From Ruminococcus sp. (GTDB taxonomy: Bacteria > Bacillota > Clostridia > Oscillospirales > Ruminococcaceae): DNA of 50,078 nucleotides. The stretch spans positions 1-50,078 of the forward strand of contig NZ_JAILMR010000074.1 of assembly GCF_024692365.1 (NCBI RefSeq), read 5' to 3'. Made by a program: the position numbers and the translations under genes. The notes under the pieces are model-generated. The model saw only the letters and a list, made by a program, of their open reading frames with translations, ran no database searches and had not been told where the DNA came from. Positions 12,294 to 29,330 of this stretch are shown piece after piece (the stretch's first letter is position 1; each line of letters opens with the position of its first letter).

Positions 12294-12375
12294 GTTAAAA
12301 GTTTATACTTATTAGTTTTGTATAGGTCATTTGGTATAAGTATAAATAATAATGAAATGGAAAGTGAGTGGTATT

Positions 12376-13623
12376 ATGAAAATGAAGAGGATAGCAACAG
12401 GTCTTTGTGCGCTGATGATGGTGTTCGGGGGGACAGTTTGCCCTGCGGCTCCCATAGGTACGAGTGTGGTCGTTACTGCAAGCGCGGCTACCTACGGTGA
12501 TTACGAATACACGGTATTTGGTGACAACACTGTGGAGATAAGCAAGTATAACGGCGAAGCTTCAAAGGTCAGTGTGCCTGCTTCCATAGGCGGAAAGACT
12601 GTTGTCAGCATTGGCAAGTATGCTTTTGACGGAAATCATTCGGTAACGAGTGTTACTCTGCCAAGCTCTATAAAGAGCATAGGTACTTGCGCATTCTTCT
12701 ACTGCTCGAATTTGCAGAGCATAAATCTGCCAAATGGTCTTAAAGAGATCAAGGACGAGGCTTTCATGAACTGCTTATCACTGCGCTCGGTTTCGATGCC
12801 TAAGACTGTTACTTCGCTTGGAAGCTGTGCTTTCAGCGGTTGTGAGGCACTTACGTCCCTTACCATAAGCAGCGGATTAAAGGCGATACCCGACTATGCT
12901 TTCAGCGAGTGCAAAGCTATCAGGAGCATTACCGTGCCAAGCGGCGTGACAAAGCTGGGCGTTCATGCATTTGATGACTGTGAGGCAATGGAGAGCATAT
13001 CTCTGCCAAGCGGTCTGACTAGCATAGGTGCAAATGCTTTCTATCGCTGTTACAGATTGAAGAGCATATCTCTGCCCGATGGCATCACCGAGATACAGGA
13101 TAATACTTTTATCGACTGTATCGGTCTTGCAAGTGTAAAGTTCCCCTCAAAGCTGAAAGAGATAGGCGGCGATGCTTTTAACGGCTGTGTACGCCTTACA
13201 AATGTACAGCTGCCAAGCAGCCTGAAAACTATCTGGTATGATGCTTTCTATGGCTGTACTGCTATGGGTACTGTAACTATCCCGAAGAGCGTTACAAAAA
13301 TCAGTCCCGATGCACTTGGTTTTTATGATGGCGGCAAGATAAAGGGCTTCAAGATGAAAGTTTACAAGGGTTCTGAGGCTGAAAAGTATGCCAAGGAGAA
13401 CGGTCTTGCTTATGAGGTCATAGTTACTGCGTCATCGGGCAAGGGAGATATAAATGGTGACGGCGTTGTGAACGTTACGGATATCACACGTTTGGCTGCG
13501 CACATAAAGAACAAAAAGAAGCTCAGAGATACCTCGAAGGCAGATATCAACGGTGACGGAAAGATCAACGTTACGGATATTCTCCGCCTGGCAGCTTTTA
13601 TCAAGGGCAAAATCAAGCTTTGA
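12376..13623 (+). CDS. Secreted leucine-rich-repeat (BspA-type) protein with C-terminal type I dockerin
   Basis: 415 residues. The signal peptide (MKMKRIATGLCALMMVFGG, cleavage probably near ASA) is followed by about ten LRR_5/BspA-type repeats of 23 residues with the pattern 'L.SI..P.(G/S)(L/V)..IG..AF..C', then a linker and a dockerin. The dockerin has two calcium-loop repeats: GDINGDGVVNVTDITRLAAH and ADINGDGKINVTDILRLAAF. In ruminococci dockerins bind cohesins of a cellulosome or amylosome scaffold on the cell surface, so this protein is probably displayed there and mediates protein or host/glycan contact; that role is inferred. An upstream ATG at 12352 lacks a ribosome binding site; the start at 12376 follows GAGTGG. 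Confidence 0.9.
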   Translation: MKMKRIATGLCALMMVFGGTVCPAAPIGTSVVVTASAATYGDYEYTVFGDNTVEISKYNGEASKVSVPASIGGKTVVSIGKYAFDGNHSVTSVTLPSSIKSIGTCAFFYCSNLQSINLPNGLKEIKDEAFMNCLSLRSVSMPKTVTSLGSCAFSGCEALTSLTISSGLKAIPDYAFSECKAIRSITVPSGVTKLGVHAFDDCEAMESISLPSGLTSIGANAFYRCYRLKSISLPDGITEIQDNTFIDCIGLASVKFPSKLKEIGGDAFNGCVRLTNVQLPSSLKTIWYDAFYGCTAMGTVTIPKSVTKISPDALGFYDGGKIKGFKMKVYKGSEAEKYAKENGLAYEVIVTASSGKGDINGDGVVNVTDITRLAAHIKNKKKLRDTSKADINGDGKINVTDILRLAAFIKGKIKL

Positions 13624-13684: not shown

Positions 13685-13938
13685 TGACTATGAATTTATG
13701 AAATTTTGACTAAATTAACACGATTATTTTGTGCATAACAGAGTTTGAAATACTATTGTGATTTTATACAAAGATTTTTGGAAAATAATTGTGAATTGCA
13801 AATATGAAAACGTTACAACAGTGCAAAAATTGCGAATAAATGACGCAAAATGCATAAAAATTGCGGTGAACGATTGTGCAGTACGGCGAAAGCTGAATTA
13901 TAGCTTAAATTTAAGGTTGCGTAAACGTTTTCTGCCGC

Positions 13939-13967
13939 TTGACAAATTGTCGGTTAATTGTTATAAT
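13939..13967 (+). promoter_or_regulatory. Perfect-consensus promoter upstream of the transport locus
   Basis: TTGACA (13939-13944), 17 bases, TATAAT (13962-13967). The first gene starts about 200 bases later, leaving a long leader. Confidence 0.88.
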
Positions 13968-14174: not shown

Positions 14175-14852
14175 ATGGACGTAATACTCAGGACAGAGGA
14201 GCTTTACCGTGACTTCAAGATCGGCGATGGCAGTACAGTTTCTGCCTTGAAAAATGTTAATATCGAGATCGAAAAAGGCAAGCTTACCGTGCTGAGAGGA
14301 CGCTCGGGAAGCGGCAAGACTACGCTGATAAATATTCTCGGGGCGCTTGACCGACCTACCAAGGGTAAGGTGCTGTTCGATGGTAAGGATATCACAAGGC
14401 TTTCCGAGGGCGCAAGAGATAATTTGCGCAGGTACGATATGGCTTTCGTTTTCCAGTCGGTGGCGCTGATGTCGGGAATGACGGCGCTTGAAAATGTGAA
14501 TTTCGGGCTCAGGCTCGCGAAATACCCTTACGATAAGCGGGACGCACGTGCAAGAGAATGTCTTGCGGCGGTGGGGCTTGAAAAGAGAATGAGCCACAGA
14601 CCCGGCGAGATGTCGGGCGGTGAACAGCAGAGAGTTGCGATAGCAAGGGCGATAGCCCACGAGCCTCGGCTGATATTCGCTGATGAGCCCACGGCGGAAC
14701 TTGATACCAATACTGCCCTACATATAGTCAAGCTTTTCAAAGAGCTTGTGGCGAAGCAGAACATGACAATAATCATGACGACCCACGACCCCAGCATGAT
14801 GGACGTGGCTGATAAGGTGTATACATTGGAGGACGGTGAGATAGTTGAGTGA
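14175..14852 (+). CDS. ABC transporter ATPase, LolD/MacB-like
   Basis: 225-residue ATPase; the start follows GGGAGGGAG, and a longer in-frame start at 14136 was rejected because it has none. Walker A GRSGSGKT is at 42-49, the Q-loop in VFQS near 94, signature MSGGEQQR at 146-153, Walker B LIFADE at 166-171 and the H-loop His204 in TTHD. The 'SGGEQQRVAIARA' form is that of the LolD/MacB/FtsE class, not of the sugar-importer MalK/MsmK class, and there is no MalK-type regulatory C-terminus. No FtsX-like permease is nearby. The next gene overlaps it by eight bases, and sugar-type permeases follow. It may energise them as half of a heterodimer. Confidence 0.9.
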   Translation: MDVILRTEELYRDFKIGDGSTVSALKNVNIEIEKGKLTVLRGRSGSGKTTLINILGALDRPTKGKVLFDGKDITRLSEGARDNLRRYDMAFVFQSVALMSGMTALENVNFGLRLAKYPYDKRDARARECLAAVGLEKRMSHRPGEMSGGEQQRVAIARAIAHEPRLIFADEPTAELDTNTALHIVKLFKELVAKQNMTIIMTTHDPSMMDVADKVYTLEDGEIVE

Positions 14853-15780
14853 TGATACTATTATAAAGTCAGCCGATGATGAATACATGATAAGATGTGA
14901 GAATCTTGTAAAAATCTATAAAACATCCGATGTTGAAGCGGTGGCACTGCAGGGGCTCGACCTTGATGTGAAAAAGGGAGAGCTTATGGCTATCGTGGGC
15001 AATTCGGGCAGCGGAAAATCAACGCTGCTGAATATGCTGGGGGGACTGGACAGACCCTCGGCGGGAAGCCTGACGGTGGACGGCAAGAATCTGCTGAAAT
15101 TTACGGATAAGGACTACATGGAGTACAAGCGGGACACCGTGGGCTTTGTGTGGCAGAACAATGCGAGAAACCTTGTGCCTTACTTGACTGCGGTGCAGAA
15201 TGTGGAACTTCCCATGCTGCTGAAAGGCAAAAAGGGAAGGCGTGCAAGGGCGCTGGAGCTTCTTAAAAAGGTAGGGCTCGAAAAGCGAAAGAACAGCAGG
15301 CTCGACCAGATGTCGGGCGGTGAACAGCAGAGGGTGGCTATCGCGATAGCTATGGCGAACGACCCGAAGCTTCTGCTGGCGGACGAACCTACGGGTTCAG
15401 TGGATACAAAGACCTCGGCGATGATACTTGATATATTCAAGGAACTGAACAGGAGCGAGGGGGTCACGGTGGTGATAGTCACCCATGACCTGAAGCTTGC
15501 AGACCATATCGACAGAGTTGTGGCGATAAGGGATGGCAGGACGAGTTCGGAGATAATCAGGAAGAAGTCGTACAGGGAAGACCTTGACGAGATGGGAGAG
15601 GTCATCACGAAAGAGGAAGAAGCTACACATGAGGAGCTGGCTGTGCTGGACAGATCGGGCAGATTACAGCTTCCCAAGGACTATATGCATTCGCTGGGCA
15701 TAAAGGGCGGCGGCAAAGTCAGGGTGGAGCTTGACGAAGAACGGGGCGGGATAATCCTTTTCCCCTCGGATGACAGTTAG
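14845..15780 (+). CDS. ABC transporter ATPase with C-terminal AbrB-like domain
   Basis: 311 residues, TTG start overlapping the previous gene. ATPase core: Walker A GNSGSGKST at 52-60, signature MSGGEQQR at 156-163, Walker B LLLADE at 176-181, H-loop His in VTHD near 214. About 60 residues follow the core. The last 40 (about 267-308) read LDRSGRLQLPKDYMHSLGI then KVRVELDEERGGIILFP, the swapped-hairpin pattern of AbrB/MazE/SpoVT domains that usually bind DNA. A fusion to a transporter ATPase is uncommon and might serve dimerisation or regulation. The partner ATPase lacks the extension, so the two may form an asymmetric pair. Confidence 0.88.
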   Translation: MSDDTIIKSADDEYMIRCENLVKIYKTSDVEAVALQGLDLDVKKGELMAIVGNSGSGKSTLLNMLGGLDRPSAGSLTVDGKNLLKFTDKDYMEYKRDTVGFVWQNNARNLVPYLTAVQNVELPMLLKGKKGRRARALELLKKVGLEKRKNSRLDQMSGGEQQRVAIAIAMANDPKLLLADEPTGSVDTKTSAMILDIFKELNRSEGVTVVIVTHDLKLADHIDRVVAIRDGRTSSEIIRKKSYREDLDEMGEVITKEEEATHEELAVLDRSGRLQLPKDYMHSLGIKGGGKVRVELDEERGGIILFPSDDS

Positions 15781-15908
15781 TATATTCGGTCTGGTTTACA
15801 GACTCAGGATAGATGGGATCTCTTTACAGTTTAAATGACTATGCGTCGGTGCAGTGAGGATCTCAGGTTTTTTTCACAGCATTATTTTTAGAAAGGGTGG
15901 ATCTAATA

Positions 15909-18848
15909 GTGAAAAACACAATGTTTAGGCGTGTTGTTTGCTCTGCTATGGCGCTCACACTGAGTGTAAGCTGCTTTGTTCCGACGGCTTTTGCAGAAAC
16001 AGGCAACTCTCTAGGCACCGCCGATGAAAGCTCGGAGGGTCTGACAGGTACGGATAGTGTACGTCAGAACTCTTACAGCAAGTATCTGAAAAAATATGAG
16101 GATACCGCAAGACCTATGATCGATGAGATCGTGATCAAGGGTTCGGATTATTTGCCTGACTCGGTGAGTGCTGATCTTATTATGGAACCCGAGACCAGTT
16201 ATGATGGCGTTAATGATGTATTCATCTGGGCGAATCAGCAGGGTTCTGTATCCTATGAGGTTGTTATCCCTCAGGACGGCAGATACAATCTTAAAATGTC
16301 CTACTACGCTCTTGCAGGAACTACAAATGATGTAGAGTTCTCTCTGCTTATCGACGGTGAGAGCCCCTATGGTACGGCACAGCGTATCACTCTTGACAAG
16401 GTTTGGATCAATGACGGTGATATTGGTGAGGATGCCAAGGGTAATGATATGCGTCCCGGACAGATAGAATATCCCACATGGCAGATGGACAAGCCTCTGG
16501 CAGATGTTGACGGTCTGTATAACGAGCCTCTGCAGTTCTATATGACCGCAGGCAAGCACGTGCTTACACTTGATTCAGACAAGGCACAGTTCGTTATAGG
16601 TGATATAAAGGTATACAATTATGAAGAGCCTGAAAAGTACAGCGCTCCTTCTTCTTCCGAGATAAATCAGTCTTCGGGACAGAAGATAGTGCTGGAGGGC
16701 GAAACTGCTACATACAAGTCTTCAAAAACACTGTATCCTACATCTGATAAGACATCTTACATGACTTCCAGCACCAAGGATTACAGCCCTACTAAGACAA
16801 GGTACAATACCATCGGCGGCGGTGGAAACTGGAACCAGTCAACACAGGCTGCCACCTGGGAATTCAATGTTCCCCAGGCAGGATACTATAAGCTGGGCAT
16901 ATTCAGCAGACAGGATCAGATGAGAGGTATGTACTCCAACAGAAGGCTGTACGTTAACGGCGTTGTTCCCAACAAGGAATCCGATCAGATCAAGTTCTAC
17001 TATGATACTGACTGGAACGTGGTAACACCTGCCGATGAGTCGGGCAACACCATGTACTACTTCCTTGAAGCAGGATCCAACACACTCACACTGGAAGCTG
17101 TTCCCGGTGAGATAGGTGAGATAATGGGTGAGCTTGATGATGTCGTTTTCGATATCAACAGCTATTATCGTCAGATAAGACAGATAACAGGTCCTTCTCC
17201 CGATGAATACAACAACTACATGATAGATGTTGCTATACCAACTATCATCGATGATTTCAAAAATAATGCCGCACTCCTCAGAGAGGAGAAGGAAAAGATC
17301 GAGAAGCTTTCGGGTTCAGGCGGAACAGAAGCCGAAACTCTTGAAAAAATGGCAATTATACTTGATAAATGTGTGAAGAAGCCTGATATAATCCCTGAAA
17401 TGATGGGACAGATCAAGGATAACATAACTGCGGTATCGACCTTTATCAATACTTACAGAATGCAGCCCCTTGAAGTTGATAAGCTTGAACTTTGCTCGGA
17501 TAATGTGGATTTCTCCGACTGCGAGCAGACTTTCTTCGGAACTGTCGGACATGGTTTCCAGTCCTTTATAGGTTCGTTCTTTGAGGATTACAACTCACTT
17601 TCTGACGATGAAGATGCAACAGCACAGGAGTGCTGGGTAACTCTCGGACGTGATAATGCCGTAGTTATCAAGGAACTTATCGACAGTGACTACAATGCAA
17701 ATTCCGATAACAAGATAAACCTCAAGCTGGTACAGGGCGGTATCACCGAGGCTACGTTCTCGGGCAAGGGTCCTGATATGGCACTCTTCCTGGGCGGTGA
17801 CTACCCAATTCAGCTGGCGGTAAGAGATACGCTGGTAGACCTGACACAGTTCAGCGACTATGAAGAAGTTACCAAGCGATTCGCTCCCGATATCATGACA
17901 CTGTATACATACGACGGTGGCGTTTATGGTCTGCCTTGTACACAGAACTTCCCGATGCTGTTCTACAGATCGGATATTCTGGAACAGTACGATATCGACC
18001 CCGATACAGATCTGGCAACATGGGACAGCCTGATAAACTGCCTGCCCACTCTCCAGAGAAACTACCTTGAAGTAGGTCTGAGACTTCCCGCTACTGCTAC
18101 CGCAGGTGTTACACTGGTATCAGCCGTTACCGAAAACGGAAGCACCTTCGCTATGATGCTTCTCCAGAAGGGTCTCAACTACTACAACGAGGATCAGACA
18201 AAGACCACATTCAGTGAACAGCCTGCTATCGAAGCTTTTGATACATGGACAAAGTTCTATACCACATACAGCTTCCAGCAGCAGTATGATGCACTGACAA
18301 GATTCAGACAGGGCGATATGCCTGTACTGGTAAACGACTATTCATTCTACAATCAGCTGACAGCTACTGCTCCCGAGATCAAGGGATGCTGGAGCTTCAG
18401 AGCTGTTCCCGGTACCAAGGACGAAAACGGCAATATCAATCATACTGCTAACTCCGAAAGCACCGGCTGCGTTATCTTCAACAAGGCTCCCGACAAGGAA
18501 GCTGCATGGGACTTCATCAAGTGGTTCACCAGCACCGAGACTCAGACCAAGTACGGCAACAATATCGAATCCGTACTCGGACCTATGGGACGTTACTGCA
18601 CTGCTAACCAGGAAGCGCTGAGAGGTCTTTCATGGACAACCAAGGAAGCAGACAAGCTGCTCGATCAGATGAACACTCAGGTCGAGATACCGATAATCCC
18701 TGCTTCTTATGGCGTAACAAGAAACGTTATGAACGCATTCAGAAAAGTTGTTAATGAAAATGAAAATGCAAGAGATACCCTGTTCTGGTACAACAAGGAT
18801 ATCAACGATGAGATCACACGTAAGCGCGCAGATCTCGGATTAGACTAA
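15909..18848 (+). CDS. Secreted modular solute-binding protein with carbohydrate-binding-like domains
   Basis: 979 residues, GTG start after AAAGGGTGG (an upstream GTG overlaps that site). Signal peptide with likely cleavage after AFA at residue 29; no convincing lipobox. Residues about 60-220 and 250-430 look like two beta-sandwich carbohydrate-binding modules (VSYEVVIPQDGRYNLKMSYY, and TWEFNVPQAGYYKLGIFSR). A helical linker of about 130 residues leads to a type 2 periplasmic-binding domain: GPDMALFLGGDYPIQLA, VYGLPCTQNFPMLFYR, ATWDSLINCLPTL, KEAAWDFIKWFTS. That C-terminal half matches extracellular binding proteins of CUT1 sugar importers. It probably captures an oligosaccharide for the permease pair that follows 20 bases downstream. 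Substrate unknown. Confidence 0.9.
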   Translation: MKNTMFRRVVCSAMALTLSVSCFVPTAFAETGNSLGTADESSEGLTGTDSVRQNSYSKYLKKYEDTARPMIDEIVIKGSDYLPDSVSADLIMEPETSYDGVNDVFIWANQQGSVSYEVVIPQDGRYNLKMSYYALAGTTNDVEFSLLIDGESPYGTAQRITLDKVWINDGDIGEDAKGNDMRPGQIEYPTWQMDKPLADVDGLYNEPLQFYMTAGKHVLTLDSDKAQFVIGDIKVYNYEEPEKYSAPSSSEINQSSGQKIVLEGETATYKSSKTLYPTSDKTSYMTSSTKDYSPTKTRYNTIGGGGNWNQSTQAATWEFNVPQAGYYKLGIFSRQDQMRGMYSNRRLYVNGVVPNKESDQIKFYYDTDWNVVTPADESGNTMYYFLEAGSNTLTLEAVPGEIGEIMGELDDVVFDINSYYRQIRQITGPSPDEYNNYMIDVAIPTIIDDFKNNAALLREEKEKIEKLSGSGGTEAETLEKMAIILDKCVKKPDIIPEMMGQIKDNITAVSTFINTYRMQPLEVDKLELCSDNVDFSDCEQTFFGTVGHGFQSFIGSFFEDYNSLSDDEDATAQECWVTLGRDNAVVIKELIDSDYNANSDNKINLKLVQGGITEATFSGKGPDMALFLGGDYPIQLAVRDTLVDLTQFSDYEEVTKRFAPDIMTLYTYDGGVYGLPCTQNFPMLFYRSDILEQYDIDPDTDLATWDSLINCLPTLQRNYLEVGLRLPATATAGVTLVSAVTENGSTFAMMLLQKGLNYYNEDQTKTTFSEQPAIEAFDTWTKFYTTYSFQQQYDALTRFRQGDMPVLVNDYSFYNQLTATAPEIKGCWSFRAVPGTKDENGNINHTANSESTGCVIFNKAPDKEAAWDFIKWFTSTETQTKYGNNIESVLGPMGRYCTANQEALRGLSWTTKEADKLLDQMNTQVEIPIIPASYGVTRNVMNAFRKVVNENENARDTLFWYNKDINDEITRKRADLGLD

Positions 18849-18868
18849 GGAAAGGAGAGTGTTGTGTT

Positions 18869-19804
18869 ATGGCTAGAAACAATAACGGCCCTATGAACAA
18901 ACAGGGTAAATGGGCTTATACCTGGCACATGGTAAAAGCCAACAAAGGCTGCTATATCATGCTCATTCCTTTCATGATATTCTTCATCACCTTTACGGTA
19001 GTGCCCGTTATAATGTCACTGCCTATGGGCTTTACAAACTTCAACATGATCCAGATGCCCAAGTGGGTCGGTCTTTCAAACTTCTATACACTGTTCGTCA
19101 ATGACGACGTGTTCCTTATCGCGATAAGAAATACTCTGATATTCGCGATATTCACAGGTCCGTTCTCCTACGTGCTCAGCTTCCTTATAGCGTGGCTGAT
19201 AAACGAGATGAACCCGTTCCTGAAAACATTCTTTACATTCGTATTCTATGCTCCTTCCATGACAACATCGGTATATGTTACCTGGCAGCTGATCCTTTCG
19301 GGCGACTCCTACGGTTACCTGAACGCTGTACTTATGGATCTGGGCATACTGAAATCACCTGCACAGTGGATAACAGACACCAAGTACATCCTGACGGTAG
19401 TTATCATCGTTCAGCTGTGGATGTCGATGGGTGCAGGCTTCCTTGCGATACGTGCAGGTTTCCAGAACATAGACAAGTCCATGTACGAGGCAGGCGCTAT
19501 CGAGGGTATCAAAAACAGATGGCAGGAACTCTTCAAGATCACTATCCCCTCTATGGGACCCCAGCTTCTGTTCGCTGCAGTTATGCAGATATCCACTTCG
19601 TTCACTGTTGGTATGGTAGGTCAGAACCTGGTAGGTCTGCCTTCCACCGACTATGCTGCACATACCATAATGAACCACGCTACTGACTACGGCTGGGTGC
19701 GTTATGAGATGGGTTATTCGTCAGCGATATGTTTCGTTCTGTTCGCTGCGATGCTTCTTGCCAACAAGGGTGTTAACTGGATACTCGGCAAGTATCTTGA
19801 TTAA
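18869..19804 (+). CDS. CUT1-type sugar ABC permease, MalF-like (pair 1)
   Basis: 311 residues, six membrane segments beginning near residue 28 (GCYIMLIPFMIFFITFTVVP). The cytoplasmic EAA loop that contacts the ATPase is visible: YEAGAIEGIKNRWQELFKIT with PSMGPQ after it. It matches the MalF/UgpA class without the extra large periplasmic loop of E. coli MalF. The neighbours are the solute-binding protein 20 bases upstream and the MalG-like partner 18 bases downstream. An ATPase of the usual MalK type is absent from the locus. Confidence 0.93.
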   Translation: MARNNNGPMNKQGKWAYTWHMVKANKGCYIMLIPFMIFFITFTVVPVIMSLPMGFTNFNMIQMPKWVGLSNFYTLFVNDDVFLIAIRNTLIFAIFTGPFSYVLSFLIAWLINEMNPFLKTFFTFVFYAPSMTTSVYVTWQLILSGDSYGYLNAVLMDLGILKSPAQWITDTKYILTVVIIVQLWMSMGAGFLAIRAGFQNIDKSMYEAGAIEGIKNRWQELFKITIPSMGPQLLFAAVMQISTSFTVGMVGQNLVGLPSTDYAAHTIMNHATDYGWVRYEMGYSSAICFVLFAAMLLANKGVNWILGKYLD

Positions 19805-19822
19805 AAGGGGGGAATATTTCAA

Positions 19823-20725
19823 ATGGCTGGAAGAAAGAAAAAGAAGCAGTCTATCGAGAAGCTCAAAGTCTCTGATAAGAAAAAGTCTATCAACGGCTCA
19901 AGAGCGGGCGATGTCTGCATATTCATATTTTTGGTACTTCTGGGTGCATTCATGGTATTCCCGCTGTACTACTCGGTGATACAGTCGTTAAAGCCTGTTG
20001 AGGAACTCTTCGTGTTCCCGCCGAAGCTTTACGTTATCAATCCCACGGGAAGGAACTTCTCGGATATGTTCAGAGTTGCGGCTAACTCATGGCAGGTGCC
20101 GCTTTCCAGATATATCTTCAACAGCTTCTTCATCACCATCGTTATCTGCGGTGCGAACCTGTTTGTTTGCTGCTGTGCGGCATTCGTGCTTTCAAAGTGC
20201 CGTTTCCCCGGTGATAAGTTCATCAACCAGGTCATAGTACTTGCGCTGCTGTTCGCTTCAAACGCAACATGGATCATGCAGTTCATGGTAATGGCTAAGC
20301 TGAGAATGATAGATACTTACTGGGCACTGATACTCCCCAGCATCTCCACATCTATCGGTCTGTACCTGATGAGACAGTCGATGTCCACGATACACGATGC
20401 GATGGTAGAGGCTGCAAAGGTGGACGGCGCAAGTCTGTTCAGGATATGCTGGCAGATCGTCGTTCCAAACTCAAAGCCCGCACTGATGACCCTGATAATC
20501 TTCGCATTCCAGGGCGCATGGAATATGCAGGGCGGCGCTCTGATATATTCGGAAGAACTCAAAACACTACCTACTGTTGTACAGCAGATCTCCGCAGCAG
20601 GTCTTGCCCGTCAGGGCGTTACCTTCGCTTCGAGCGTTGTACTTCTCATTCCTCCGCTGGCGGTATTCCTGGTTGCACAGGGCAACGTAATGGAGACCAT
20701 GGCGAATTCCGGTATGAAGGATTAA
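19823..20725 (+). CDS. CUT1-type sugar ABC permease, MalG-like (pair 1)
   Basis: 300 residues with a lysine-rich N-terminus (MAGRKKKKQSIEKLKVSDKK), six membrane segments and the EAA loop VEAAKVDGASLFRICWQIV followed by PNSKPALMTL, typical of the MalG/UgpE class. The start follows a run of Gs at good spacing. With the upstream MalF-like gene it should form the heterodimeric channel of a carbohydrate importer in the membrane. Confidence 0.93.
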   Translation: MAGRKKKKQSIEKLKVSDKKKSINGSRAGDVCIFIFLVLLGAFMVFPLYYSVIQSLKPVEELFVFPPKLYVINPTGRNFSDMFRVAANSWQVPLSRYIFNSFFITIVICGANLFVCCCAAFVLSKCRFPGDKFINQVIVLALLFASNATWIMQFMVMAKLRMIDTYWALILPSISTSIGLYLMRQSMSTIHDAMVEAAKVDGASLFRICWQIVVPNSKPALMTLIIFAFQGAWNMQGGALIYSEELKTLPTVVQQISAAGLARQGVTFASSVVLLIPPLAVFLVAQGNVMETMANSGMKD

Positions 20726-20770
20726 TAGGTATCCGACATGAGAACTAGAAAAGGAAAAAGGTGATAAGTA

Positions 20771-22372
20771 GTGTTGAGAATAAAAAATTCTTTTAAAAAG
20801 ATTCTCTGCGCAGGACTGGCTGCCGTCGCTGCAATGTCGATGACGCTGAACACTTACGCAGCAGAACCCTACAAGTCCTATATATACGATGCCTGGGGCG
20901 ACCCGATACCTTCGCAGAATGCTTATCGTATCGATAAAGCCGTTACCGGATTCGATATGGGACTGGACAGGCTTTCAGATCCCGCAGATCCGCTGTTTAT
21001 CGGCGAGAATGCTTCTGCAAGGCTTGCAAATGCAAAGGATATGTACTTTGATCCCGAGCTGAAACAGTTCTGGGTAGCGGATACCGATAACAACCGTATC
21101 CTCAGACTTGACGAAGAACTGAAACTCGTGGGCGCTTATACAGGCGCTTCGGACGGCAAAAACTTTGCCGCTCCCTCGGGAATTTATGTAAAGCGCAGTG
21201 TAATTGACAACAAGCTTTACATATACATTGCAGACTATGAAAATTCAAGAGTTGTAAAGGCTTCGGTAGAATCCAATACAGAACTTGAGCTTGTGATGGA
21301 ATACACAAGACCAGAGACTGACCTCTACACCGTTGAGACCTTCAACCCCTCAAAGGTCGTAGCAGATAAGGCTGAGAACGTGTATGCAGTTTGTACCTCT
21401 GTTAACCAGGGTGCGGTGCAGTTTACAAAGACGGGCAAGTTCCAGGGCTACTTCGGCGCTAACCGAGTTGAGGTAACGGCAGCCGTTATCGCACAGAAAC
21501 TCTGGAGAAAGTTTGCTTCAAACGAGCAGATCTCAGGTATGCAGAGAAACGTTCCTGTTGAGTATGCAAACTTCGATATCGACGACGGCGGTTTCATCTA
21601 CACCGTTACCGAAGCTGCAAACGCTACCACGGACGCTGTTAAGAAGCTGAACCCCGCAGGTTACAACATCTGGAACAACTCCACAGGTGATACCTACGTC
21701 TTCGGTGATATGGCTTCGGAGTACGATGCTACTGCGAACCAGACTTATTCCACCAGACTTACAGATATATGCATATCCGATAACGGTCTGATAAATGTAC
21801 TGGACTTCGCAACAGGACGTGTGTTCCAGTACGACAGAAATGCTGAGCTGCTTTGTATCTTCGGTACAAAGAACTCTAAAAACGATCAGCGCGGAAGCTT
21901 CTCGAGCCCCAATGCGGTAGAAGCTTACAACAATAACATCTACGTTCTGGACGGCGCGAAGAACGATATAACTATCTATTCCGAGACTACATTCGGTTCG
22001 CTGATGCATGAAGCTATCGAACTTTACGATCAGGGCAGATATTCTGAAGCTAAGCCTATCTGGGAGAACGTCCTTGCAAGAGACGGCGGCTATCCTATGG
22101 CGTATATGGGTCTCGGCAAGGCTGCGCTGAATGAAGGCGAGTACAAGAAGGCTCTGGATTACTTTGAGACAGCTTACGCTCAGAAATCTTACGACAGGGC
22201 ATTCAAGTACGCAAGAAACGAGTTCATTGAGGAATACTTCAATGTTATCGTAACTGTACTTGCTGTACTGATAGTATGGCTGATAGTACTTTCCAAGCTG
22301 CACAAGAGAAATATCTTTATCATCAAGGGCAAGCTCGGAAAATTATTCCAAAAGCAGAAGGAGGGAAGATAA
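20771..22372 (+). CDS. Secreted NHL-repeat protein with TPR segment and C-terminal membrane anchor
   Basis: 533 residues, GTG start after AAGGTG (a TTG one codon later is an alternative). Signal peptide with cleavage near TYAA. Residues about 75-415 form a beta-propeller of NHL type: KDMYFDPELKQFWVADTDNNRIL, YIYIADYENSRVV, INVLDFATGRVF, NNIYVLDGAKNDITIYS. Residues about 420-485 are a tetratricopeptide pair (ALNEGEYKKALDYFETAY). A single membrane helix (about 495-515) and a short basic tail end the protein, so the propeller should face outside. It probably acts as a binding or scaffold part of the surface complex; no enzymatic motif is seen. YIP1 starts three bases later. Confidence 0.85.
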   Translation: MLRIKNSFKKILCAGLAAVAAMSMTLNTYAAEPYKSYIYDAWGDPIPSQNAYRIDKAVTGFDMGLDRLSDPADPLFIGENASARLANAKDMYFDPELKQFWVADTDNNRILRLDEELKLVGAYTGASDGKNFAAPSGIYVKRSVIDNKLYIYIADYENSRVVKASVESNTELELVMEYTRPETDLYTVETFNPSKVVADKAENVYAVCTSVNQGAVQFTKTGKFQGYFGANRVEVTAAVIAQKLWRKFASNEQISGMQRNVPVEYANFDIDDGGFIYTVTEAANATTDAVKKLNPAGYNIWNNSTGDTYVFGDMASEYDATANQTYSTRLTDICISDNGLINVLDFATGRVFQYDRNAELLCIFGTKNSKNDQRGSFSSPNAVEAYNNNIYVLDGAKNDITIYSETTFGSLMHEAIELYDQGRYSEAKPIWENVLARDGGYPMAYMGLGKAALNEGEYKKALDYFETAYAQKSYDRAFKYARNEFIEEYFNVIVTVLAVLIVWLIVLSKLHKRNIFIIKGKLGKLFQKQKEGR

Positions 22373-22375
22373 GTC

Positions 22376-23005
22376 ATGTATGAATTTACACCCATAGGCT
22401 GGTTGAAGCACTGTATCTTCCACCCTGTTGAAGGTTTTGAGGATCTGAGATGGAAGAAGCAGGGATCTATGAAGATATCTGCTGTGATAGTATTCATGCT
22501 CTTCGTTGCAATGGTCGCTGACAGACAGCTGACAGGCTTCCAGTTCAACGGCAACTACGTTAAGATCTTCAATGTCGTTCCGCTGATAGTTCAGTCGGTG
22601 GTATACTATATTACATGGTGCATCGGCAACTGGTCGATATGTACTCTGCTGGAGGGCGAGGGTACATTCAGAAAGATCTGTATCTACTCCGCTTATTCTC
22701 TGGTGCCTTACATAGTATGTACACTTATAAGCGTACTTCTCTCAAACTTCCTGGTACAGGAAGAGGCTATATGGCTGATCGCCCTGTATTATCTGGGCTA
22801 TGGCTGGTCAATAGTACTTATGATACAGGCAATGAGAGCCTGCCACCAGTATTCATTCGGCAAGACACTTATATCTATGCTGTTGACCCTGGCAGCAATG
22901 TTGCTGATACTGTTCCTGGCAATACTTCTGCTCTCTCTGTTCCAGCAGGTTTACGTATTCTTCTATCAGATCTACACTGAGATCGCGTATAGGATCCGAG
23001 GCTAA
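22376..23005 (+). CDS. YIP1 family membrane protein
   Basis: 209 residues, five hydrophobic segments. The N-terminal HPVEGFEDLRWKKQGS and central GEGTFRKICIYSAYSLVPYI are the bacterial YIP1-domain signatures. Function of bacterial members is unknown. It starts three bases after the NHL gene and precedes the DUF5696-like gene, a neighbourhood suggesting that these three proteins form one membrane assembly with the transporters. Confidence 0.85.
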   Translation: MYEFTPIGWLKHCIFHPVEGFEDLRWKKQGSMKISAVIVFMLFVAMVADRQLTGFQFNGNYVKIFNVVPLIVQSVVYYITWCIGNWSICTLLEGEGTFRKICIYSAYSLVPYIVCTLISVLLSNFLVQEEAIWLIALYYLGYGWSIVLMIQAMRACHQYSFGKTLISMLLTLAAMLLILFLAILLLSLFQQVYVFFYQIYTEIAYRIRG

Positions 23006-23025
23006 TTAGAAACGGTGGTGTTAAA

Positions 23026-25413
23026 ATGCATAATAGAAATTATAAAAAAGCGATTGTCTTTGGTTTGTGTCTTACTATGCTGATGCCTCTGGGTTCTATG
23101 GCTGTTACTTCGGCAGATTCCGAGGAGGATACCGCCGCGGTCGAAGACGCTGTGGAAGCAGCTGATGAGATCACCTCGGGCGATGAGGATACTACGGGAA
23201 GTGAAGACGAACTCCCCGAAAAGATCACTGATGAGCAGGCTGCCGCTATGGCTGAAAAGCTCAGCGAGAACAACAACTTCATTCTTTACGGCGACGAAAA
23301 GAATGGTAGACTTGGTCTTTATGTAAAGAGCAGCGGTGCTTACTGGTGGACTTCACCTATAAATGTAGCCTCAGAGGATCAGGTAGTCGATCCTGAAAAG
23401 GGCATGGCAATGAAAAAAGCGCTGAGAAAGCAGATCGCTTCAAGCTGCGCTATCAAGGTCGGTGACCTCAGACAGGAAAAGAGGACAGAGTCTGCGGCTC
23501 CTATTTACTCAAACAAGGCAACTGCCAAGTGGACGAAAAATGACAAGGGCGCTGTTATCGAATACAATTACAAATCCGATGGCGTAAAGCTGAAAGTTCA
23601 TTATGAGCTTTGCGAGGACAGTCTGTACGTTTACATGAATTCTTCCGAAGTGGAAGAGGCGAACACTTCTCTGGTAGACGGCAAGATACTTACCAAACTC
23701 CAGCTTTGTCCTTACTTTGCAGCTGCTCCTGCTGTGGACTACAACGGCAATCCTACAAGCGGCTACATGATAATCCCCGACGGCAGCGGTGCTGTTATCA
23801 ACTACAACAACGGCAAGGGAACTTATCCCGATTATGAGCAGCAGGTATACGGCAGAGATTACACTATGGTTCCTCTGCAGGCTCCCAGAGTTACAGAGCA
23901 GGCTTATTTGCCTGTACTCTCAACGGTAAACGGCAGTAACGGTATCGTTGCGGTGGCTACTGACGGTGATGCCAACGTATACGCAAGGGCACAGGTCAGC
24001 GGTCAGAACAAGCAGGTCTACAACAACTGCTATTTCGAGTTTGAAACACGTTCTTCCGATGCGTTCTATATGAGCGGTGTTGCCAACAAGCTGAACGTAT
24101 TTGAAAAGGGCGATATCAAGACCGAGCGCTTCGGTGTACACTACTATCCCGTTACAAGCAAGGACGGCGGCACTGTAAACTACGCTGACTGCGCTGAGGT
24201 TTACAGAAACTACCTTATTGATGAGAAGGGTCTGAAAAAGCAGAACTCTCTCGGCAACAAGCTTTATATGGATCTCTACGGCGGCGTGCTGAAGAGAACT
24301 TCCATTCTGGGTCTGCCTTTCAATCTCAAAACCGAGATAACAGGCTTCGACCAGGCAGGCAAGATAGTTGAAGCCCTCAAGGGCAAGGGCGTAAACAGCT
24401 TCAACGTTAACTATAACGACTGGACAAACGCCTCCATAAAGGGTAATATCTCTACTAAGGCAAAAGCTTCAGGCACACTGGGCGGCAACAGCGCGTTCAC
24501 CGATTTTATCAATACTGACGGCGTTCAGGTGTACCCATCGATGAACAACTTCACTATGGACAGATCTTCCGCCGGTTACTGGACACTGACAAGCACAGCG
24601 ATAAGAATATCCAACGCTTATTCAAGACAGTCCTCTTACAGCCTGTCCTTCGGTGTTACAAAGAAGGGCGTAGCTCCCGCACTGCTGTCTCCCGACAAGT
24701 ATTCAAAGACCTTTGAAGAGATGATAAGCAGCTATCAGGATAAGGGTATTGACAGAGTTGGTTTTGGTTATCTGTCTTCCAGACTGGTAGGAGATTATAC
24801 CAAAAAGAAAACCTATTGCAGAGATAAGACCATGAATGTACTGGTAGATGAGTACAAGAATGCAAACAGCAATATGGGTGCGGTACTGGCTGATGAAGCT
24901 AATGCTTATATCCTGCCTTATGTTTCAACTGTATCCAGCATTCCTGTTTCTTCCAGCGGATACGATATCACTGATTTCGATATCCCGTTCTATCAGATGG
25001 TAATACACGGCTATGTGCCTTATGCTTCAAGTGCTATCAACAAGAGCTCAAATACTGATGAGACCTTTATGCTGGCTCTTGCTTCGGGTTCGCAGATGCA
25101 CTACGATTTCACCTATGTTGACAGCGATGTGCTTCAGGACACTGATTACAACGACCTGTATTACACCAATTACAAGGGCTGGACAGCTGCGGCAGCCAGC
25201 CAGTACAAGGCGGCAAAGAACGTTATCGGCGGTGTTGCCGATTATACCATCAGCAAGTATGAAGTAAGCGGCGACGGAAATGTCCTCACGACCACCTATT
25301 CCAAGGAAGGTAAGGACGATGTTATTGTAGAGATCGACAAGAAGAACGCTACCGCGACAGTTGACGGCAAGAACGTCAACATATCAAATTGTATTGAAGG
25401 AGGTTTGAAATAA
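23026..25413 (+). CDS. Secreted DUF5696-like protein, possible non-classical glycoside hydrolase
   Basis: 795 residues. Signal peptide (MHNRNYKKAIVFGLCLTMLM) then an acidic Glu/Asp-rich linker to about residue 75. A beta-rich region (about 85-400) includes NGRLGLYVKSSGAYWWTS, SGYMIIPDGSGAVINYNNG and KDIKTERFGVHYYPV-type strands. The 410-720 region alternates helix and strand like a TIM barrel: YMDLYGGVLKRTS, GKIVEALKGKGVNSFNVNYN, VQVYPSMNNFTMD, VLADEANAYILPYVS. A short C-terminal beta domain ends it. DUF5696 assignment is from this pattern and the neighbourhood; catalysis is only inferred. Candidate acids include the Asp/Glu of ADEANAY. The stop overlaps the next start by one base. Confidence 0.75.
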   Translation: MHNRNYKKAIVFGLCLTMLMPLGSMAVTSADSEEDTAAVEDAVEAADEITSGDEDTTGSEDELPEKITDEQAAAMAEKLSENNNFILYGDEKNGRLGLYVKSSGAYWWTSPINVASEDQVVDPEKGMAMKKALRKQIASSCAIKVGDLRQEKRTESAAPIYSNKATAKWTKNDKGAVIEYNYKSDGVKLKVHYELCEDSLYVYMNSSEVEEANTSLVDGKILTKLQLCPYFAAAPAVDYNGNPTSGYMIIPDGSGAVINYNNGKGTYPDYEQQVYGRDYTMVPLQAPRVTEQAYLPVLSTVNGSNGIVAVATDGDANVYARAQVSGQNKQVYNNCYFEFETRSSDAFYMSGVANKLNVFEKGDIKTERFGVHYYPVTSKDGGTVNYADCAEVYRNYLIDEKGLKKQNSLGNKLYMDLYGGVLKRTSILGLPFNLKTEITGFDQAGKIVEALKGKGVNSFNVNYNDWTNASIKGNISTKAKASGTLGGNSAFTDFINTDGVQVYPSMNNFTMDRSSAGYWTLTSTAIRISNAYSRQSSYSLSFGVTKKGVAPALLSPDKYSKTFEEMISSYQDKGIDRVGFGYLSSRLVGDYTKKKTYCRDKTMNVLVDEYKNANSNMGAVLADEANAYILPYVSTVSSIPVSSSGYDITDFDIPFYQMVIHGYVPYASSAINKSSNTDETFMLALASGSQMHYDFTYVDSDVLQDTDYNDLYYTNYKGWTAAAASQYKAAKNVIGGVADYTISKYEVSGDGNVLTTTYSKEGKDDVIVEIDKKNATATVDGKNVNISNCIEGGLK

Positions 25414-26357
25414 TGAGCAAAGATAATAAAGCAGTTCAGACTTCCGAAAAACAAAAAAGACACGTTCTTTCCTACGAAAAAAGAAAGGGACTTTACGGCT
25501 ACGGCTTCATAGGTCTCTGGGCGCTGGGCACGATATACTTCTTTATCGCACCTCTCATCATGTCTCTCATTTATTCCTTCAACGAAACATCAGTCGAAGT
25601 CGGCGGCATGAAGATGAAGTGGATAGGCATGAAGAACTATGTCAATGCTTTCCGTAAGGATCAGGATTACACTCTTGCGCTGGTTGATATGCTGAAAAAC
25701 ACAGCGCTGAGAACTCCTCTGATCATTATATTCTCGATATTCATCGCACTGGTGCTGAACCAGAAGTTCAAGGGAAGAACTTTCGCAAGAGCGGTATTCT
25801 TCCTGCCTGTTATCATAGCTACCGGTCCTGTTATGGATATCATCAACGGTAACATGAGCACAGGTGGATACTCGGGCGGTTCCGAGCAGTTCAGCACAAT
25901 GTTTGAAGCTAACCTTGTAGATCAGCTTCTCAACTTCCTGGGCATCTATAACATCAGTGACAAGCTGTCGAACATCATCAATTCGCTGACTACCGACATC
26001 TTCAATCTGGTGTGGAACTCGGGTATACAGATACTTCTGATACTCGCAGCACTCCAGGGCATCTCACCTGCTTCAAAGGAAGCAGCTCAGATGGAGGGTG
26101 CAACTTCGTGGGAATTCTTCTGGAAGATAACTCTCCCTACGATAAGCCCCATGATACTCGCAAGCGTTGTTTATACAGTAGTTGACTCCTTCGTTGACCC
26201 CGGTAACAAGGTAATGACCATAGTTCTTAACAAGTCTACGAACTGGCAGCACGGATATTCAGCTGCGATGGCTTGGGCATACTTCGCTATAATAGGTGTT
26301 TGCCTTGGTATCATAGTTGCTATCCTTAACAAGGTCATCTACTACGAAGTTGAGTAA
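25413..26357 (+). CDS. CUT1-type sugar ABC permease, MalF-like (pair 2)
   Basis: 314 residues, six membrane segments (first at about 30-52, GFIGLWALGTIYFFIAPLIM). The EAA loop reads KEAAQMEGATSWEFFWKIT followed by LPTISPMI. A longer extracytoplasmic loop rich in Gly/Ser (NGNMSTGGYSGGSEQFST) separates two of the segments, and differs from the pair-1 protein, so the two channels are not recent copies. It follows GGAGG and overlaps the previous gene by one base. Confidence 0.92.
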   Translation: MSKDNKAVQTSEKQKRHVLSYEKRKGLYGYGFIGLWALGTIYFFIAPLIMSLIYSFNETSVEVGGMKMKWIGMKNYVNAFRKDQDYTLALVDMLKNTALRTPLIIIFSIFIALVLNQKFKGRTFARAVFFLPVIIATGPVMDIINGNMSTGGYSGGSEQFSTMFEANLVDQLLNFLGIYNISDKLSNIINSLTTDIFNLVWNSGIQILLILAALQGISPASKEAAQMEGATSWEFFWKITLPTISPMILASVVYTVVDSFVDPGNKVMTIVLNKSTNWQHGYSAAMAWAYFAIIGVCLGIIVAILNKVIYYEVE

Positions 26358-26370
26358 AGGGGGGATAGAA

Positions 26371-27420
26371 GTGGCAACTAAAAAAGAAGAAAAGCAGTTT
26401 GAAAAAGAGCGTAAAGCTGCTATTAAAGCTCGTGAGAAGCGAATGAAGGAGGAAGGTCTTGAAAAGTTCCTTACTCCCGATCAGATAAAGTACAACAGAA
26501 GGCAGAAAGCCATGGGCGCTGTCTGGCCTGTATTCAGATTTCTGATACTATTCGGTCTGTGCTTTGTCATACTCTATCCTCTGATATTCATGCTTTCAAC
26601 AGCATTCAGACCCAATGAACAGATGAACGACCCTTCTATCATCTGGATACCCAAGAATTTCACTATGTCGAACATCAAGGATACCTGGAAGGTAATGAAG
26701 TTCGATAAGACACTGATAAACACAATTATCCTGAATCTGGTATCTTCTGTTCTTCAGGTAATTACCTGTTCGATAACAGGCTATGGTTTCGCAAGATTCA
26801 AGTTCAAAGGCAAGAATCTCCTGTTCGCCATAGTTGTTCTGATGATAATCGTTCCTCCCCAGATAACAACGATACCTCTGTATATGCAGTATGCATATTT
26901 CAAGCCTCAGTTCCTGGCTAAGATATTCACTCTTGGCAAATCTACTTCACTGATAAACAGCGGTTGGACGATGTATCTGCCTGCACTGTTCGCAAACGGC
27001 ATAAGAGCAGGTCTGTTCATCTTCATCTTCCGTCAGTTCTTCAGAGGACTTCCCAAGGAACTTGAAGACGCAGCTTATCTGGACGGCTGTTCACCCCTTT
27101 ACACTTATGTAAAGATAATGATACCCAACGCAAGGCAGTCATTCCTGACAGTTTTCCTGTTCTCCATCGTATGGTACTGGAACGACTACTATGTATCAAG
27201 TTCTTTCTTCACCAACAACGACACAGTTGCACTGATGCTGAAGAACCTGAATACCACCCTTGCAAAGACCCTCTTCAACAATCAGTCAGTATCTGTTCGT
27301 CAGATAATCGTTTGGCTGGAAGCAGGCTGTCTGCTTTCGATAACTCCTATACTGGTAATGTATGTATTCCTGCAGAGATACTTCGTAGAAGGTATCGAAA
27401 AGTCCGGTCTTGCAAACTGA
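26371..27420 (+). CDS. CUT1-type sugar ABC permease, MalG-like (pair 2)
   Basis: 349 residues from a GTG start after AAAGGGGGG; a longer in-frame start inside the previous gene was rejected. A charged cytoplasmic N-terminus of about 60 residues (KKEEKQFEKERKAAIKARE) precedes six membrane segments. EAA loop: EDAAYLDGCSPLYTYVKIM followed by IPNARQ. The long charged N-terminus is unlike the pair-1 MalG and could contact the ATPases. It is the last gene of the locus, followed by a bidirectional hairpin. No solute-binding protein dedicated to pair 2 is evident. Confidence 0.92.
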   Translation: MATKKEEKQFEKERKAAIKAREKRMKEEGLEKFLTPDQIKYNRRQKAMGAVWPVFRFLILFGLCFVILYPLIFMLSTAFRPNEQMNDPSIIWIPKNFTMSNIKDTWKVMKFDKTLINTIILNLVSSVLQVITCSITGYGFARFKFKGKNLLFAIVVLMIIVPPQITTIPLYMQYAYFKPQFLAKIFTLGKSTSLINSGWTMYLPALFANGIRAGLFIFIFRQFFRGLPKELEDAAYLDGCSPLYTYVKIMIPNARQSFLTVFLFSIVWYWNDYYVSSSFFTNNDTVALMLKNLNTTLAKTLFNNQSVSVRQIIVWLEAGCLLSITPILVMYVFLQRYFVEGIEKSGLAN

Positions 27421-27568: not shown

Positions 27569-28876
27569 CTATTCGTATGCGAGGAATTCTTCGGGGATAT
27601 AATTGATGTAGTTCTGCAGAACGTTTCTGTTTACACCTGCACGCTGATACATCATGTGGCGGGAAAGCATATCATCGGAGTAATCGCCGTAGGGGTATAC
27701 AGCACAGTTGTACCACATGGAATCCCAGCTGTAACCCTCATAATGGGATATGACGGGGATAGCCTTGACGTTCTCGAAAGATATCGCACCGCCGTTATCG
27801 TAGTCTTTAACTACGTCCAGCTTGCCGAATATGCCGATTATCGACCTGCCAAACTGACCGTCGGGATTGTCGCCATCGAACATGGTGGAGAAGAAATTTC
27901 CCAGACCGTAGTAGCAGAAAGCCTGACCGCCGTCGGGTTTGTCGAGGTAGGTGCAGGTGGAAAGTGCGTGTGCCTGAGTTCCTATTATAAGGTCAGCACC
28001 CCATTCTACCAGCTTGGGAGTGAGGGATAACTGCATATCGTTCAGGTCGTTGAGGACTTCCGTGCCATAGTGGCAGGACACCACAACAACGTCAGCCATT
28101 TTGTCGGCTTTTTCGATCTGGCGCTTGACAGTCTCCTCATCGGAGAGGTATACTACCTTTCCTGCATCACCGTCACCGAGGAATATGCCGTTGGTATGTT
28201 CCATGTATCCGAGGAAAGCAAAGGTTACACCGTTGACTTCCATTGTTCTTATGTTTTCCGAATCTGCTTCATCACGGTAAGCGCCGTAATGAACAACGCC
28301 TTTTCTGTCCCAGTAATCAAGGGAGGATATCAGCCCGTCGGAGAACTTATCAAGCACATGATTGTTCGACATGGAAATGACGTTGAATCCGAAATCCACC
28401 ACGGCATCACCGACTTCGGTGGGAGTGGAGAACATTGGGAAAGTCGAGGGCTCAAAAGCATCGTTTACAAGAGTCTCCTGATTGAGTATCGCGACATCGG
28501 TGCCCTCTATCAGCTTTTTGCAGGGAGCGTAGCACTTTGAAAAATCGTAGCTGCCGTCCTCCTGCTGTGCCTCGACGTAAATGTTATCGTGGATAAGGTT
28601 ATCGCCTGCACAGGCAAGATGCACTACGGTTTTGCCTGTCTTGTTCTCATCGGCAGATTTTTCCTCTGGGGCACTTTCGCTGACTGAACTTTCAGCATCG
28701 GTGATAGTATTCTCGGCGGTATCCTCGGAGGGCTTATTGTAATCTATAACTTCTATCCCTGCGACAGAGGTTTTCTCTGTTTCGGGTGCGGACTTTTCTT
28801 CTGTATCCGACAGCTTACCGCAGGAAGTTGTCAGCATCGCGGCTGCAAGAATGAACGGGAGAGTCTTTATCTTCAT
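27569..28876 (-). CDS. CapA-family (PgsA-like) cell-surface lipoprotein
   Basis: 435 residues. An N-terminal signal ends in LTTSCGK with a likely lipidated Cys19. An acidic Ser/Glu-rich linker runs to about residue 85. The CapA metallophosphatase-like domain follows: VHLACAGDNLIHD, VAILNQETLVND, FNVISMSNNHVLD, DVVVVSCHYGTEV, ADLIIGTQAHALS. His and Asp residues in these motifs correspond to metal ligands of the calcineurin-like fold. The family includes PgsA/CapA of poly-gamma-glutamate synthesis, but no pgsB or pgsC is adjacent, so its substrate is unknown. Own promoter and terminator; it is divergent from adhE. Confidence 0.88.
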   Translation of the reverse strand: MKIKTLPFILAAAMLTTSCGKLSDTEEKSAPETEKTSVAGIEVIDYNKPSEDTAENTITDAESSVSESAPEEKSADENKTGKTVVHLACAGDNLIHDNIYVEAQQEDGSYDFSKCYAPCKKLIEGTDVAILNQETLVNDAFEPSTFPMFSTPTEVGDAVVDFGFNVISMSNNHVLDKFSDGLISSLDYWDRKGVVHYGAYRDEADSENIRTMEVNGVTFAFLGYMEHTNGIFLGDGDAGKVVYLSDEETVKRQIEKADKMADVVVVSCHYGTEVLNDLNDMQLSLTPKLVEWGADLIIGTQAHALSTCTYLDKPDGGQAFCYYGLGNFFSTMFDGDNPDGQFGRSIIGIFGKLDVVKDYDNGGAISFENVKAIPVISHYEGYSWDSMWYNCAVYPYGDYSDDMLSRHMMYQRAGVNRNVLQNYINYIPEEFLAYE

Positions 28877-29235: not shown

Positions 29236-29251
29236 AGGAATATAATTTAAT

Positions 29252-29290
29252 GGGTATCAGGTTCGGATATTCCGATAATACCTGTTTTTG
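29252..29290 (+). promoter_or_regulatory. Terminator-like hairpin in the adhE leader
   Basis: CAGGT, TCGGA, loop TAT, TCCGA, bulge TAAT, ACCTG, then TTTTT. It lies between the promoter and the ribosome binding site, where an attenuator or mRNA-stability element would be. Confidence 0.5.
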
Positions 29291-29330
29291 TGTGAAAATT
29301 CAACCTGAAAATGTTTGGAGGATAATATCT

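Follow-up and report, generated by a model that had tools for sequence, protein, structure and literature searches.

The locus described here raises the question of whether ten closely packed genes that look like one uptake machine actually serve one. It lies in a 50,078-nucleotide stretch of Ruminococcus sp. (GCF_024692365.1, NZ_JAILMR010000074.1), hereafter the window, which is one entire contig of a 3.68 Mb genome in 140 contigs; the closest named relatives are Ruminococcus albus strains, with 90% identity to KH2T6 in the DUF5696 protein of the locus. An earlier model-made interpretation (the sequence-only reading) had named ten genes in one direction at 14175-27420, and all ten + strand open reading frames (ORFs) were recovered there with domains matching those names: two ATPases (A1 and A2), a large solute-binding protein (SBP), the CUT1 permease pairs P1a/P1b and P2a/P2b, an NHL/TPR protein, a YIP1 protein and a DUF5696 protein. 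The A1 and A2 genes share 8 bases, the distance from A2 to the SBP gene is 116 or 128 bases according to which start codon is used, and the remaining gaps are tight. The ten genes were read as a single machine for glycan capture and uptake. We find instead that they most likely split into two modules, an eight-gene cassette running from the SBP to P2b and the A1/A2 ATPase pair, the latter tracking an FtsX/HlyD exporter.

The eight-gene cassette is a recurrent unit. Of 100 relatives, 50 had a DUF5696 match scoring over the Pfam cut-off, as did 42 in a draw of 398 genomes from the phylum, and 60 regions around such hits were picked by hand, hence not as a random sample. The exact order SBP-P1a-P1b-NHL(+YIP1)-DUF5696-P2a-P2b on one strand was present in 50 of these 60 chosen loci, as in the window, with YIP1 a separate gene in 35 of the 50, fused in 14 and split over two ORFs in one; three loci had the rotated order NHL+YIP1-DUF5696-P2a-P2b-SBP-P1a-P1b. 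All core families were adjacent in 53/60 loci, far beyond chance. Three loci (L200, L201, L203) carried NHL+YIP1-DUF5696-P2a-P2b only, P2b was separated from P2a in L214, and L074, L202 and L210 were interrupted by contig ends. An EAA-like motif was found in 126/128 P1a, 120/129 P1b, 113/138 P2a and 130/138 P2b sequences, and by eye in the four permeases of the window; the Pfam score of P2a, 26.1 bits, is marginally below the cut-off of 26.4. The expectation that all ten families would travel together thus held for eight of them, in conserved order, and failed for A2, which was absent from 24 of the 46 genomes with a near full-length DUF5696. Separately, related proteins lie 3' of the cassette in two genomes (L063:1665-3983 and L064:13607-15922); WD40 propeller repeats were seen in the former, and in 2 of 46 flanking proteins of one scan.

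To what, then, do the two ATPases belong? By domain both are LolD-type, and in A1 the Walker A, signature, Walker B and H-loop motifs are intact. Among the 100 relatives, A2 (E 1e-85 or better) was detected in 27 genomes and FtsX, at a threshold of E 1e-30, in 28, and the A2 genomes all fell within the FtsX set (27/27). Outside the genus, FtsX, A1 and A2 were adjacent in six of the nine genomes with FtsX (G058, G066, G075, G082, G090, G097), regions which were fetched because the A2 and FtsX searches showed proximity (G058 for FtsX without a counted A2); an HlyD-like ORF stood next to FtsX in four of these six and one ORF away in two. In G035, FtsX-A1 ran into the contig end, and in 3 of 16 sampled A1/A2 loci (L050, L068, L071) HlyD and FtsX lay directly 3' of P2b. 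In occurrence and gene order, these LolD-type ATPases thus go with FtsX and HlyD proteins. Because A2 is restricted to FtsX genomes and FtsX, A1 and A2 adjoin outside the genus, we take A1/A2 to be, most likely, the two ATPases of an exporter of FtsX/HlyD type (MacB/YknXYZ-like), with which they would form a physical complex; the notion of all ten genes as one machine is not supported. Exporters of the MacB/LolCDE/YknXYZ type share LolD-type ATPases, an FtsX permease and an HlyD-type protein with the predicted system, in which the FtsX permease carries two FtsX stretches and its partner is an HlyD-type fusion protein. Unlike them, the present system has two distinct ATPases per FtsX, and in the window's genome these reside away from FtsX, inside a sugar-uptake operon: the best FtsX and HlyD homologues there (69% and 64% identical) sit side by side on contig C135, no LolD-type ATPase was present in the 19.9 kb read around them, and the sole ATP-binding cassette (ABC) ORF in those 19.9 kb was a 542-residue double protein, ECF-type by eye. 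As an observation in its own right, the C-terminus of A2 (15649-15768) resembles MazE/AbrB (PF04014, 20.4 bits, below the cut-off), which is unexpected on a LolD-type ATPase.

One alternative is that A1/A2 energise one or both CUT1 pairs, making an importer with exporter-type ATPases. In Ruminococcus the two genes share operon and promoter with the cassette, and in all 16 sampled loci that have them they stand immediately 5' of the SBP gene. This has to be set against the many cassette genomes without A2, the exclusive company of FtsX, the adjacency to FtsX outside the genus, and the availability of an MsmK-like gene in the genome; we rejected A1/A2 as the importers' ATPases on FtsX co-occurrence and adjacency, and consider the idea very improbable.

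The sequence-only reading had drawn attention to the missing MalK-type ATPase, and for the locus itself this is correct, no MalK/MsmK-type ATPase with an OB domain being encoded within it. The possibility that the whole genome is devoid of one was rejected, as an OB_MalK, MsmK-like protein is encoded on another contig (G000:C86, truncated by the contig start), which makes the local absence unremarkable. An OB_MalK match was likewise found in 43 of the 46 genomes with near full-length DUF5696. In Caldicellulosiruptor bescii (C. bescii), CUT1 systems lacking their own ATPase are presumably served by MsmK, and cells deleted for msmK grow less well on di-, oligo- and polysaccharides (PMC8579813). 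A MalK gene within the locus is therefore not to be expected. The window shares with CUT1 importers using a common MsmK/MsmX (PMC7658222, PMC8579813) an SBP resembling maltose-binding protein (MBP), EAA-loop permease pairs, the lack of a local ATPase and an MsmK-like gene elsewhere; it differs from them in its very large SBP with N-terminal beta-sandwich modules and no lipobox, and in having two permease pairs together with NHL/TPR-YIP1 and DUF5696 subunits. We infer that the MsmK-like ATPase energises the CUT1 pairs of the window.

The arrangement of control elements upstream of A1 bears on how the two modules are joined. In the window and 75 fetched loci (76 in all, some genomes twice; 48 after dereplication), a promoter of the type TTGACA-17-TATAAT lay within 400 bases 5' of A1 in 76/76 cases (48/48 dereplicated), against 1.6% of random pieces, which were mostly coding; in 72/76 it was within 350 bases. 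The motif AARCGYTT occurred in 42/76 of these upstream regions against 5.8% of random, again mostly coding, 400-mers from the same loci, and in 37/76 (24/48 dereplicated) it lay 10-20 nt 5' of the -35 box; a slightly wider operator motif was observed in 44/76 against 4.1/76 expected in shuffles. A break of transcription between the ATPases and the permeases would have spoken against the sequence-only reading, and on this point it stands as far as a consensus scan can tell, since no + strand terminator-like site was detected between the ATPases and the SBP gene. A single promoter probably drives all ten genes, and a single transcript would then span both modules. We inspected 18 HlyD-FtsX regions, 17 of them with an HlyD gene (L227 and L233 had short upstream sequence; in L243 HlyD follows the cassette), and none of the 17 paired the operator with a promoter of this type; common regulation of HlyD-FtsX with the cassette is therefore unsupported.

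These data also bear on a second alternative, in which exporter and importer are coupled, sugar-regulated A1/A2 powering FtsX/HlyD so that the SBP/NHL/DUF5696 complex is assembled, released or gated mechanically. Such coupling would account for the placement of A1/A2 under the cassette's promoter and for the contiguity of A1, A2, cassette, HlyD and FtsX in three loci, and DUF5696 and A2 are associated over the 100 genomes (22 shared, p 2.7e-5, uncorrected for phylogeny). It fits poorly with the 24/46 cassette genomes lacking A2, with five genomes having A2 without the cassette (G018, G035, G066, G075, G090), and with the HlyD-FtsX regions lacking the operator-promoter pair. We consider a coupled machine unlikely, and continue with two modules that share a promoter.

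What the cassette would take up is best approached through C. bescii. A region of genome G266 carries the cassette, and a 28-base XynR operator probe, the sequence published for Athe_0174 (PMC12285236), matches it exactly once, 147 bases 5' of the SBP ORF; we therefore take G266 to be C. bescii and its cassette to belong to the xylan degradation locus, which PMC8579813 gives as xloEFG-X-GH129-axoFGE. From Athe_0174 onward, the head of that locus has the same families in the same order as the window; the SBP is homologous to XloE (Athe_0174) at the same position, and X corresponds to an NHL/TPR-YIP1 fusion, whereas the window has NHL and YIP1 as separate genes. The eight-gene cassette has thus been partly described already, at the head of the xylan operon of C. 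bescii, whose proximal genes are induced about 10- to 100-fold by xylan (PMC8579813) and whose operator is bound by XynR with a dissociation constant of 161 nM (PMC12285236); Athe_0181 is mentioned in PMC10492685. Unlike that locus, the window shows no second SBP and no xylanase beside its cassette, and its operon is headed by two exporter ATPases. By analogy, the substrate in the window strain is most likely of xylan type. In other genomes the cassette neighbours include glycoside hydrolase (GH) families GH43 (8 of 95 scanned proteins), GH95, GH10, GH26, GH31, GH3 and GH35, an apiosidase-like protein and a pectate lyase, in a scan that covered 95 of 171 flanking ORFs and the 25 commonest families per scan; because these enzymes vary, the kit would serve plant-wall glycans of several kinds. 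That the locus contains a machine for extracellular glycan binding and uptake, as had been proposed, is supported by the conserved cassette, the C. bescii operon, the MBP-like sugar SBP and the EAA loops.

A further hint comes from closer relatives. We take genome G022 to be R. albus 7, and one of its two CapA genes adjoins the cassette. In excerpts of the RNA sequencing study of R. albus 7 (PMC4300822), the ABC operon Rumal_3184-3187, with 3184 and 3185 permeases and 3186 an SBP, is more than 4-fold up on cellulose relative to cellobiose, as is the CapA gene Rumal_3179. The Rumal numbering and the G022 gene order are off by one, and in a gene-density calibration with two chromosomal GH11 tags, 0908 fits and 2739 does not. 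The cassette is probably among the operons raised more than 4-fold on cellulose.

DUF5696 had been put forward as perhaps a new hydrolase. Its AlphaFold2 model (pLDDT 84.9, pTM 0.86, the predicted local distance difference test and template modelling scores) matched best the GH129 proteins ZgGH129, a 3,6-anhydro-D-galactosidase (5opq, E 1.5e-25), and NagBb, an alpha-N-acetylgalactosaminidase (5wzq, E 2.4e-20), followed by GH36, GH31 and GH97 proteins. Sequence profile searches gave matches at 7e-11 (to ZgGH129) and 2.4e-4 over partial stretches, and hhalign against three GH129-like proteins gave probability 98.4 and E 6.8e-15 over 423 columns. The predicted structure and the profiles agree that DUF5696 has GH129 fold and homology. 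We take D435 of NagBb to be the nucleophile and E478 the acid/base; both positions are invariant in the three GH129-like controls (3/3). In an alignment of 54 DUF5696 representatives of less than 60% identity, the programs align the nucleophile to R586, which we moved to 582 by motif, by eye, in what is a remote alignment. Column 582 is Asp in 18/54 and 586 in 6/54; of the acid/base candidates, 623 is Glu in 8/54 and 624 in 4/54. The columns matching the catalytic Asp/Glu are thus variable, and with moderate certainty, given the remoteness of the alignment, the family as a whole appears to lack a kept GH129 dyad, in contrast to NagBb and ZgGH129, with which it shares predicted fold and sequence homology. 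We therefore do not uphold the hydrolase assignment and consider DUF5696 a probable pseudo-glycosidase that would bind or present glycan.

The opposite view, that DUF5696 is an active, divergent GH129-like glycosidase trimming captured glycan at the cell surface, deserves some weight. Besides fold and homology, it can draw on a signal-like N-terminus, on the Asp at the candidate nucleophile in a third of the representatives, on D590, the best-kept barrel Asp/Glu (43/54), and on the name GH129 given to the C. bescii homologue in PMC8579813; an excerpt of PMC4867992 describes a GH129 and a CBM35 (carbohydrate-binding module) protein of Paenibacillus O199, found only on cellulose, which may or may not belong to the DUF5696 family. 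Yet D590 is less well kept than N672 (54/54) and R599 (53/54), and the Ruminococcus clade has Ala where 39/54 carry E686. On balance we find activity doubtful, and retain the pseudo-glycosidase. The same C. bescii name qualifies the earlier statement that DUF5696 proteins have no known role, which is otherwise nearly right, the name DUF5696 being absent from the open-licence papers searched. Independently, a protein of a same-family genome (L217:1071-2966) matches NagBb over its full length (E 3.4e-226) and is likely a true alpha-N-acetylgalactosaminidase.

How the large SBP is kept at the surface is a separate matter. Its Pfam match is SBP_bac_8 (87.6 bits), and its model (pLDDT 83.3, pTM 0.78) contains beta-sandwiches at about residues 78-240 and 263-402, a helical stretch at 405-521 and then the MBP-like SBP; the structures closest to the latter mostly bind sugars, and a wide variety of them, so the fold does not point to one substrate. 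No lipobox was found in the SBP of the window, and among large SBPs a lipobox-like motif occurred in 1/129 (some N-termini incomplete, some genomes twice) against 12/26 of the second SBPs that other genomes encode near the cassette (27 hits minus one large-SBP fragment). Lacking a lipobox, the large SBP would depend on an uncleaved signal helix or on a partner protein to stay in place, and NHL/TPR-YIP1 is the obvious candidate for such a partner. By hydropathy, the NHL/TPR protein has a signal-like N-terminus and one C-terminal membrane helix. YIP1 is fused to it in 21/60 loci, and Pfam detected both domains in 4/4 fused proteins tested (Yip1 of L075 at 24.3 bits, below the cut-off) and in C. 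bescii; fusion in other genomes is good evidence that the two proteins work together. Among the literature matches listed, nothing relevant linked YIP1 to either transporters or TPR. In 20/60 regions there was a second SBP gene, and none was seen by eye among the window's neighbouring ORFs, so that the P2 pair may share the large SBP or use a remote one.

Taken together, we favour, with fair but by no means full confidence, a sugar-regulated operon of two modules behind one promoter, combining a CUT1 uptake kit with an exporter ATPase pair. In the first module, from the SBP to P2b, the large SBP would capture oligosaccharides of the plant cell wall, most likely those of xylan, for import by the two permease pairs, both powered by the remotely encoded MsmK-like ATPase; NHL/TPR and YIP1 might form a membrane-anchored outer scaffold keeping the SBP, itself not lipidated, together with DUF5696 at the permeases, and DUF5696, a GH129 fold without the conserved dyad, would bind or present the glycan. 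The second module, A1 and A2, would supply the ATPases for an FtsX/HlyD-type exporter encoded elsewhere in the genome. This scheme explains why the locus misleads on two counts, in lacking MalK and in carrying the odd ATPases.

Several observations weigh against it. A1/A2 share their promoter with the cassette while HlyD-FtsX lacks the operator-promoter pair, so that the ATPases go with the importer in their regulation and not visibly with their exporter. In G018 the A1-A2 pair (L228:2789-4403) lies apart from FtsX (L227) and from any cassette, without DUF5696, and G038 and G043 have A1/A2 at the cassette and FtsX elsewhere. Three of the 46 cassette genomes (G025, G084, G093) gave no OB_MalK match, G093 being 96% complete. 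The variety of neighbouring enzymes, from GH43 to pectate lyase, leaves the substrate of the window strain a candidate only. Finally, the catalytic mapping of DUF5696 depends on a remote alignment, the 18/54 with Asp at 582 could be active, and the counts of barrel conservation stand without comparison to an equally diverse active family.

The eight-gene set recurs over Bacillota, from rumen Ruminococcus to the thermophile C. bescii, and we found no function assigned to NHL/TPR, YIP1 or DUF5696, constant companions of two sugar permease pairs. If the scheme is true, Gram-positive fibre degraders capture hemicellulose via a dedicated surface complex with a dead glycosidase. We offer, tentatively and as a speculation that may well prove wrong, that the cassette is the Gram-positive counterpart of the outer Sus machinery of Bacteroides, a stable surface complex with DUF5696 as pseudo-glycosidase and NHL/TPR-YIP1 as membrane-anchored propeller scaffold, together holding the non-lipidated, modular SBP over two CUT1 translocators, and with a sugar-regulated FtsX-type exporter coupled in Ruminococcus.

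Features of the locus, in window positions (all on the + strand)
Feature	Position	Strand	Basis or remark
Candidate LacI-family-like operator, core AAACGTTT	13920..13934	+	AARCGYTT motif upstream of A1
Predicted promoter, TTGACA-17-TATAAT	13939..13967	+	12/12 consensus match
A1, LolD/MacB-type ABC ATPase, 225 aa	14175..14852	+	domains; intact motifs; FtsX neighbour in other genomes
A2, LolD/MacB-type ABC ATPase with C-terminal MazE/AbrB-like domain, 311 aa	14845..15780	+	domains
Modular SBP, 979-983 residues	15909..18848	+	alternative start upstream, 15897
P1a, CUT1 permease, XloF-like	18869..19804	+	domains, cassette order
P1b, CUT1 permease, XloG-like	19823..20725	+	domains, cassette order
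NHL propeller/TPR protein	20771..22372	+	domains; hydropathy
YIP1-domain multi-pass membrane protein	22376..23005	+	Pfam Yip1, 58.7 bits
DUF5696, secreted, predicted GH129 fold, catalytic positions variable	23026..25413	+	model, profiles, alignment
P2a, CUT1 permease, AxoF-like	25413..26357	+	Pfam BPD_transp_1
P2b, CUT1 permease, AxoG-like	26371..27420	+	GTG start after AAAGGAGG, resembling a ribosome-binding site, chosen by eye; ORF opens at 26317

Around the locus, a 905-residue ORF at 29250-31967 resembles, by eye only, a bifunctional acetaldehyde/alcohol dehydrogenase. Upstream, at 12352-13623, lies a leucine-rich-repeat protein of BspA type that carries a type I dockerin, and a PGA_cap/CapA protein on the - strand (27569-28876) faces the end of the cassette; in L048, L051 and L070 a homologue of the former is found beside the operon and one of the latter at the equivalent place.

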